From assembly GCA_020725525.1 (NCBI GenBank), contig DYEX01000045.1, positions 1 through 37,014 on the forward strand: a DNA stretch of 37,014 nucleotides, in the 5' to 3' direction. Each line of letters begins with the position of its first letter. The first letter of the stretch is position 1. Positions 5,910-32,040 of this stretch are shown here, one piece after another. Source of the DNA: Desulfovirgula sp. (lineage in GTDB: Bacteria > Bacillota > Desulfotomaculia > Desulfotomaculales > Desulfovirgulaceae). Under the pieces are notes generated by a model. The model had not been told where the DNA came from. It worked only from the letters and a program-made list of their open reading frames with translations, and made no database searches. The translations under genes were made by a program, and so were the position numbers.

Positions 5910-6417
5910 TTCTGCTTCCCCCTTTTTTATTCATTACAGGACGGGGTACCCCCGATTGCATATGAGCCGGGCGGGGTCGCCCTGTGGTTTGGGCGCTCGA
6001 CAGGACAGACCGCCGCCCCCTGCTAATTTTTCGGGACTTTACCACTATAACTGCCGGGAAAACTATATGCCAGCTGTAAATATTCAGTGAACCCGGTTGG
6101 ATGCGGTGTTGTCCTCGTTCACTCCAGTGCTTCGCGCCGACAGTACCGCATCCCTGTCATAACGGTTTTACTGAATATTTACCTGGAGTCTACCTGTCAC
6201 CTCCCCCCGCCGGTTGCCAAAAATTTTATCATGCAAGAATTAAACCACAATTCTGATTATTGTTATAATCAGTTAATTCACTACTCTAAGAAGTGGGCTA
6301 CACGGCAAATTACGCGTAAAACAGTGTAACAATAAACACATAAAAATTTCGAGTAAAGCAAAAAACAGGACACTGGGGCTGTAAATAATCCTAGACATGT
6401 TTTTGAGCGTAAGCGGC
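5910..6417. other. Intergenic region, no gene; contains a structured repeat
   Basis: No coding frame is supported in these 508 bases. The part next to 5910 is the 5' region of the acyl-CoA synthetase. A structured repeat occupies 6070-6186. An AT-rich stretch near 6240-6270 contains CTGATTA-ttgtta-TAATCAG (7-bp inverted repeat), which may be an operator or part of a distant promoter. No clear -35/-10 pair was found. Confidence 0.5.
6070..6186. repeat. Structured repeat element, copy 1 (imperfect terminal inverted repeats)
   Basis: GTAAATATTCAGT (6076-6088) and ACTGAATATTTAC (6170-6182) are perfect 13-bp inverted repeats, extended by CCAG/CTGG at the edges (6070-6073, 6183-6186). A second 9-bp inverted repeat, GGATGCGGT (6099-6107) and ACCGCATCC (6145-6153), lies inside. 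The core from about 6106 to 6150 resembles, by eye, the reverse complement of 20340-20393, sharing blocks such as GTTGTCC, TCACTCC and CGCGCC in the same order and spacing. It has no coding capacity. It looks like a miniature mobile element or dispersed structured repeat. Confidence 0.65.
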
Positions 6418-20140: not shown

Positions 20141-20177
20141 TTTATCACAAATGTTCAGTTAAACCGCATTGTTAACT

Positions 20178-20393
20178 CTTAAGGCACGGCGTTGTCTAGA
20201 GCGAACGATTTTGCGGAACGCCGGTAACCCAGCACTCACTGAACTATGATGCTCTTACTAAGGCTGCTGTAACAAGCAGTAAATGCTGGTTTTTCCAGTA
20301 TAGCTTTTTCAGTGAGTGCTGGGCGGCCCGAAGTGAACCGTGGTGCTGTAGGCGCGGAGTATAGGAGTGAGCGGGACAACGCCGTGCCTTAAG
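20178..20393. repeat. Structured repeat element, copy 2: nested perfect inverted repeats
   Basis: An outer perfect 19-bp inverted repeat, CTTAAGGCACGGCGTTGTC (20178-20196) and its complement (20375-20393), encloses an inner perfect 16-bp one, CCCAGCACTCACTGAA (20228-20243) and its complement (20308-20323). Inside are small hairpins CTGCT/AGCAG and CTGG/CCAG. No frame longer than a few dozen codons is present. The right part (20340-20393), read on the minus strand, resembles the core of the element at 6106-6150. It sits between the mutase operon and its probable terminator, so it would be transcribed at the 3' end of that message. It may be a miniature transposable element or a structured RNA. 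Confidence 0.8.
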
Positions 20394-20409
20394 CGGATTG
20401 AAGTATTCC

Positions 20410-31515: not shown

Positions 31516-31584
31516 CTATTATAGCATAACCCGTCTCTTATGTGGGTGGAAAGTGCTGCGAAATTTTTTAACATAAAATACCAG

Positions 31585-31628
31585 GGTCCTGGGTCAAATG
31601 AAAAAATGTCTGACCCAGGACCTTTTTC
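31585..31628 (+). terminator. Strong terminator-like hairpin
   Basis: GGTCCTGGGTCA (31585-31596) and TGACCCAGGACC (31611-31622) form a perfect 12-bp stem followed by TTTTT. It points along the plus strand, but no plus-strand gene lies just upstream, and guaB starts divergently 108 nt away. It may insulate the spore-protein gene or act as an attenuator. Confidence 0.6.
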
Positions 31629-31716
31629 GCAAAGGGCAGGGTTCCATTTCTCCCTTAAACTAACGGAATGTATCTATATTCCGGTGGGAACAATACTGTT
31701 AAGGAGGTGTTGCCGC

Positions 31717-32040
31717 TTGCCAAATCGCCAAAACAAATTATTGGTACCGGCAGCGGAATCCCGTCTGGATGTATTAAAGTACGAAATAGCCAGCGAATTG
31801 GGATACCCGTTGCATATCGGAGAAAGAGCGGCCACTCCCCAGAACTGGAACCGTATTCTAGATCAAATGAAGTACGAAATTGCTCAGGAACTGGGGCTTA
31901 CTCCCCGGATTAAAAATGGTTACTGGGGAGACTTGAGCTCCCGGGCCTGCGGCGCTGTAGGTGGACGAATCGGTGGCAAACTGGGCGGTAATATGGTCCG
32001 GCAGATGATTCTGCTTGCCGGGCAGAACCTGATCCGGTAG
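31717..32040 (+). CDS. Alpha/beta-type small acid-soluble spore protein with duplicated motif
   Basis: The 107-residue protein binds spore DNA. The SASP core is clear: MKYEIAQELGL (51-61), NGYWGDLSSRACGAVGGRIGG (split around 67-87) and MVRQMI. KYE-IA is the site type cut by the germination protease GPR. Unusually, a second KYEIASELG (21-29) lies upstream of the usual one (52-60), separated by about 22 residues, so the N-terminal motif appears duplicated. Typical members are 60-95 residues. The start is TTG at 31717 with AAGGAGGTG upstream. Expression in the forespore under sigma-G is expected from the family; no confident sigma-G promoter was recognised. Confidence 0.9.
   Translation: MPNRQNKLLVPAAESRLDVLKYEIASELGYPLHIGERAATPQNWNRILDQMKYEIAQELGLTPRIKNGYWGDLSSRACGAVGGRIGGKLGGNMVRQMILLAGQNLIR

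Follow-up and report, generated by a model that had tools for sequence, protein, structure and literature searches.

MITEs are expected to lose their interiors quickly. Among known kinds of element, the palindromic MITE stands nearest to the sequences described here. The resemblance to IS66-class MITEs extends to ends that begin with GTAA, 8-bp target duplications and the lack of a transposase gene, and there is an IS66 element that shares the left end; in contrast to those MITEs, the present interior is not a shortened IS66 but a hairpin spread over many genera. Comparison can also be made with ERIC, Correia and RUP, which passages of two papers (PMC10969869; PMC2229807) describe as small, mostly intergenic sequences with transcripts that can fold. 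According to the same passages, ERIC is orientation-dependent, RNase III cleaves the transcripts of Correia, and RUP is tied to an insertion sequence (IS) through its ends. Compared by description only, ERIC resembles the present family in being an imperfect palindrome found between genes over many genera, and is reported in those passages to be co-transcribed and orientation-sensitive (PMC10969869; PMC2229807); it differs in its length of 127 bp and in its ends and hosts, whereas IS66-type ends and a covarying core are found here. Correia/NEMIS and RUP, likewise small mobile sequences with folding transcripts in these passages (PMC10969869; PMC2229807), belong to other IS families and have other ends and other hosts.

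The window, i.e. the whole stretch of DNA analysed here, comprises 37,014 nucleotides of a Desulfovirgula sp. contig (DYEX01000045.1). Two of its sites probably represent a MITE, a non-autonomous transposon of the IS66 class, with a conserved imperfect hairpin inside. Attention was drawn to them by a likeness between the core of the first site and the reverse complement of positions 20340–20393, and this likeness holds up, with agreement at 32 of the 39 aligned bases, a score that none of 2000 shuffles reaches. The two sites were initially delimited as 6070–6186 and 20178–20393, and both limits shift. Copy 1 is exactly 6076–6182, a complete compact 107-bp element bounded by an IS66-type end at either side. 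Its left terminal repeat (6076–6093, plus strand) matches the pattern GTAAATATTCAGTGAACC exactly, and its right terminal repeat lies at 6165–6182 (minus strand). Copy 2 is wider (about 20147–20408); it is an element of subfamily C with a decayed right end and a nested 96-bp hairpin (CCCAGCACTCAC...GTGAGTGCTGGG, 20228–20323).

Each core is indeed bounded by its own inverted repeats; these are, however, subterminal stems and not transposon ends. In copy 1, which folds with a z-score of −7.47, the 5′ arm of the subfamily A stem (6099–6113) pairs with 6139–6153 (GGATGCGG.../...CCGCATCC), and in copy 2 the 5′ arm of the subfamily C stem (20178–20196) has its partner at 20375–20393 (AAGGCACGGCG.../...CGCCGTGCCTT). 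The conserved core arm occupies 6107–6147 on the minus strand in copy 1 and 20340–20393 on the plus strand in copy 2, these being the strands that bear the purine-rich loops and are assumed to be the sense strands. Copy 1 is neighboured by genes for an AMP-binding enzyme and a starch-synthase-like glycosyltransferase, both on the minus strand, and copy 2 by a gene for a B12-binding protein and a convergent class-V aminotransferase gene. Elsewhere in the window, a 39-nt direct repeat (31764–31802 and 31857–31895, 72% alike, 93 bases from start to start) lies inside the open reading frame (ORF) at 31540–32040.

The family is far larger than the two copies from which it was first described. Sequence searches of the window's own genome return at least 67 matches to copy 1 and at least 72 to copy 2 (among the best 40 of 51 candidates for copy 1 and the best 40 of 79 for copy 2), counts in which one copy can contribute more than one piece and inverted arms are included. 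With a sequence profile built on the left end and the core, at least 34 matches are found in this genome, 14 in another genome of the genus (G003) and at least 44 in each of four relatives (G001, G002, G004 and G005). Within the class, this profile is positive in 35 of 113 genomes and 18 of 55 genera, the match in several genera being the core without the end. The exact left-end pattern is present in 9 of the 113. In a phylum sample of 398 genomes, another profile, restricted to the core arm, is positive in 22 (best 14 candidates per genome); among the six resulting loci that were inspected (L404–L409), two from another class (L404 and L409) are two-arm homologues, and two (L405 and L406) belong to the same order. 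No IS66 end is visible in copies from four genomes (G015, loci L321–L326; G007; G017; G011), and inspection by eye of the end-less G015 copies revealed no clear other end or duplication. One copy in G003 (L081) has the same length and flanks as a copy in D. australicus (L170), and on this basis the genus that G003 shares with the window's genome is probably Desulfofundulus. No match to the element was found in plasmids and phages at E ≤ 1e-3, or in viral contigs with an exact 27-base pattern. Likewise, titles and abstract openings on IS66 MITEs, repeats of Desulfofundulus and Desulfotomaculum, and RNAs of Pelotomaculum yielded no published description of the repeat.

Mobility, one of the two natures initially suggested for the repeat, is well supported. 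The elements are short (about 107 to 310 bp, full copies being ~307 bp long and starting with GTAAATATTCAGTGAACC), free of transposase and bounded by terminal inverted repeats, both in the 107-bp copy and in the full copies, and their ends start with GTAA, as in the IS66 class with its 8-bp duplication. Flanking 8-mers agree at 7–8 of 8 positions in 19 of 43 unique two-ended copies, including 11 perfect pairs, against a mean of 0.49 copies and a maximum of 4 in 2000 trials with permuted flanks; the set includes one probably false pairing (L075). Mean flank identity peaks at length 8 only. Against mobility, the flanks agree at just 0–3 of 8 positions in 15 of the 43. The many target duplications that were anticipated for a mobile element are a property of the family. 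As a further point against mobility, none can be read at either window copy: the 8-mers beside copy 1 share 2 of 8 positions, and no 8-bp duplication was seen in the flanks of copy 2. Outside the genus, flanks agree at 7–8 of 8 in five of nine paired copies, and mobility is therefore not confined to the genus. Additionally, at the place orthologous to copy 1 the element is absent from all five aligned relatives (G001–G005), in which the flanks have diverged. At the place orthologous to copy 2, two relatives (G001 and G005) have the left end alone, which runs into the right flank at a shared CCG, one (G003) has nothing recognisable, and two (G002 and G004) have rearranged sequence. Ends, duplications, orthologous sites without the element and an IS66 element that shares the left end together give the mobile reading firm support.

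That IS66 element (L184), from Acididesulfobacillus acetoxydans and hence outside the window's own genus, is 2714 bp long, has a perfect 8-bp duplication and codes for an IS66 transposase (PF03050, 3e-53). Its left end is identical to the 18-base left end of the MITE, and its right end agrees at 15 of 18 bases. When the core pattern was sought in it, the one match, with six mismatches, was attributable to chance. A DruA-domain gene lies beside the transposase (the element being on the minus strand of the locus). Closer to the window, the MITE end is absent from 18 IS66 loci of 11 searched genomes (none with fewer than five mismatches). The resident IS66 elements of the genus have 8-bp duplications (four loci at 8 of 8) and were rejected as partners on account of their differing ends (GTAAGCGTCAAACACAACC); the window's own genome has IS66 in broken form only. 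A relative of the L184 transposase in G008 was also set aside, as it is decayed (45% identity, two TAG stops), and following up the exact ends that occur singly in G054, G049 and G008 revealed no IS. No IS66 with the MITE ends was found in the genus, for which the assemblies are mostly drafts in which a partner could be missed. The exact 18-base end itself occurs at 80 or more loci in several phyla. Such ends, seen in Planctomycetota, Omnitrophota, Brocadiaceae and others (L139–L218), are often close to contig ends, and two of these loci (L164, 206 bp; L195, 115 bp) look like other small elements with perfect 8-bp duplications. An IS66 transposase acting in trans would have moved the copies; in the genomes searched this transposase was not seen in intact form, and it may since have been lost.

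A full copy folds into a single long imperfect hairpin. The initial remark on differing arms around a kept core is borne out, and it led to the main result, namely that the stems covary. Within the genus, a comparison of 11 full-length copies from three subfamilies shows two-sided changes at 14 of 81 pairs, compared with 4.4 in shuffles, and the subterminal stem supplies eight two-sided changes among its 16 pairs. The arms differ and the core is kept because the compensated changes, by which the subterminal stems vary between subfamilies, concentrate in this stem. Compensated base pairs across relatives, the mark of a structured RNA, also appear between genera. In an alignment of 26 copies from 12 genera and six families with 44 predicted pairs (including one retained row, L037, that was miscut and is without the 3′ stem), 30 of the 44 pairs are changed on both sides, compared with 14.6 in shuffles; none of 500 shuffles is as high, although counting pairs on the alignment that served to predict the structure favours the structure somewhat. 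Slid controls of this alignment give at most 13 two-sided pairs, and two-sided changes fill 118 cells against 31.7. Mean identity is 0.69 in the outer stem, 0.90 in the inner paired columns and 0.82 in the inner unpaired columns. Indeed, the facing unpaired segments are largely fixed over the 12 genera, and those of one strand are purine-rich (e.g. GCGAAGCGC facing GCGCGGAGC). Covariation, together with facing loops that simple copying between arms should erase, makes the conserved structure well supported. Both natures proposed for the repeat thus hold, in that it is a mobile miniature element with a conserved structure. As for the proposal of a conserved structured RNA, single-strand structure with covariation over 12 genera stands, and we infer that the core may function as RNA.

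The orientation of the core relative to genes was examined with the purine-loop strand set as sense beforehand; because only long ORFs served as genes, the counts are approximate. At 55 of 76 loci (P = 1.2e-4) the sense strand also carries the gene 3′ of the core, a set that takes in the loci of a smaller earlier look (30 of 41) and divides into 34 of 49 loci in the genus and 21 of 27 outside it. For the gene 5′ of the core the figure is 51 of 80 (P = 0.018), and an ORF runs over the core at 11 of 88 loci. Copy 1 agrees with this bias, and copy 2 sits between convergent genes.

The interior of the element is modular. The 96-bp hairpin with ends CCCAGCACTCAC/GTGAGTGCTGGG that is nested in copy 2 is present in many other copies, at recurring positions and with differing inner sequences, and in one copy (L128, element on the minus strand) the inner part is inverted relative to the ends, as expected from recombination between arms. 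The core of the window copies matches no Rfam family at gathering or permissive thresholds; a match to mir-221 (24.7 bits) is below the cut-off and was taken as chance. When further loci were scanned, TwoAYGGAY (RF01731) was the sole family to exceed its threshold on the element or close to it. This motif, which appears in tables of the Rfam 15 paper (PMC11701678) and of a 2010 motif paper (PMC2864571), lies over two G015 copies (L321, 419–575; L325, 465–621). The well-aligned part in both is a central two-hairpin module, in contrast to the window copies and the other loci scanned, which are unmatched over the element. TwoAYGGAY was rejected as the identity of the window copies, as its gathering score is not reached there. 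Two neighbouring matches were also seen above threshold, namely TwoAYGGAY beside the element at L335 (668–732) and a guanidine-I riboswitch (L009, 67–180) adjoining a repeat copy.

What has kept the hairpin can be accounted for in several ways. The element may be a purely selfish palindromic MITE, in which copying between the arms during replication or repair maintains complementarity and the folded strand is without function. Mobile palindromic elements are common, the L128 inversion is a sign of recombination between arms, and the modules vary among copies. Arm copying should, however, also erase the facing unpaired segments, and these have been kept over 12 genera; the strand bias to genes is a further argument against this account, which we consider unlikely. 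Unlikely, too, is a core that began as an independent structured RNA or single-strand DNA element and was captured by IS66-type ends, these ends being incidental. Copies in G015, G007, G017 and G011 and in another class, in which no IS66 ends can be recognised, point in that direction, but such copies may simply be decayed, and in several families ends and 8-bp duplications go with the core.

Chance similarity, or a repeat of the REP or IS200 type, could be invoked for small size and hairpin shape only, and its likelihood is negligible given the failure of all 2000 shuffles to match the observed score, the 34 or more matches in the window's own genome, and the 8-bp duplications with IS66-type ends. 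REP and IS200-type repeats are not known to produce an 8-bp target duplication. The outcome on which the initial annotation would have been abandoned (two copies only, no covariation and absence from relatives) is contradicted on every point.

For a mobile IS66-class element with a conserved hairpin, we tentatively put forward, as a possibility, that the core represents an undescribed structured RNA family of the phylum, whose purine-rich internal loops are largely invariant and which is selected in transcripts, and that the IS66-type ends spread this module into operon leaders and gaps in one preferred orientation. Under the preferred explanation, the purine-loop strand, when transcribed, would form a single long stem in which the internal loops are fixed; such folding would explain why pairing is kept while the sequence drifts and why one gene orientation is favoured. 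Most likely, the structure would serve processing or stability in leaders and in the gaps within operons, or would be one required for transposition itself. The family departs from what is expected of MITEs: conservation of the hairpin core extends across families and reaches another class even as the paired bases of its stems change together, and the copies prefer one strand with respect to genes. If the fold works as RNA, it would constitute a mobile RNA module, the effect of which on many operons could be tested in cultured Desulfofundulus species.
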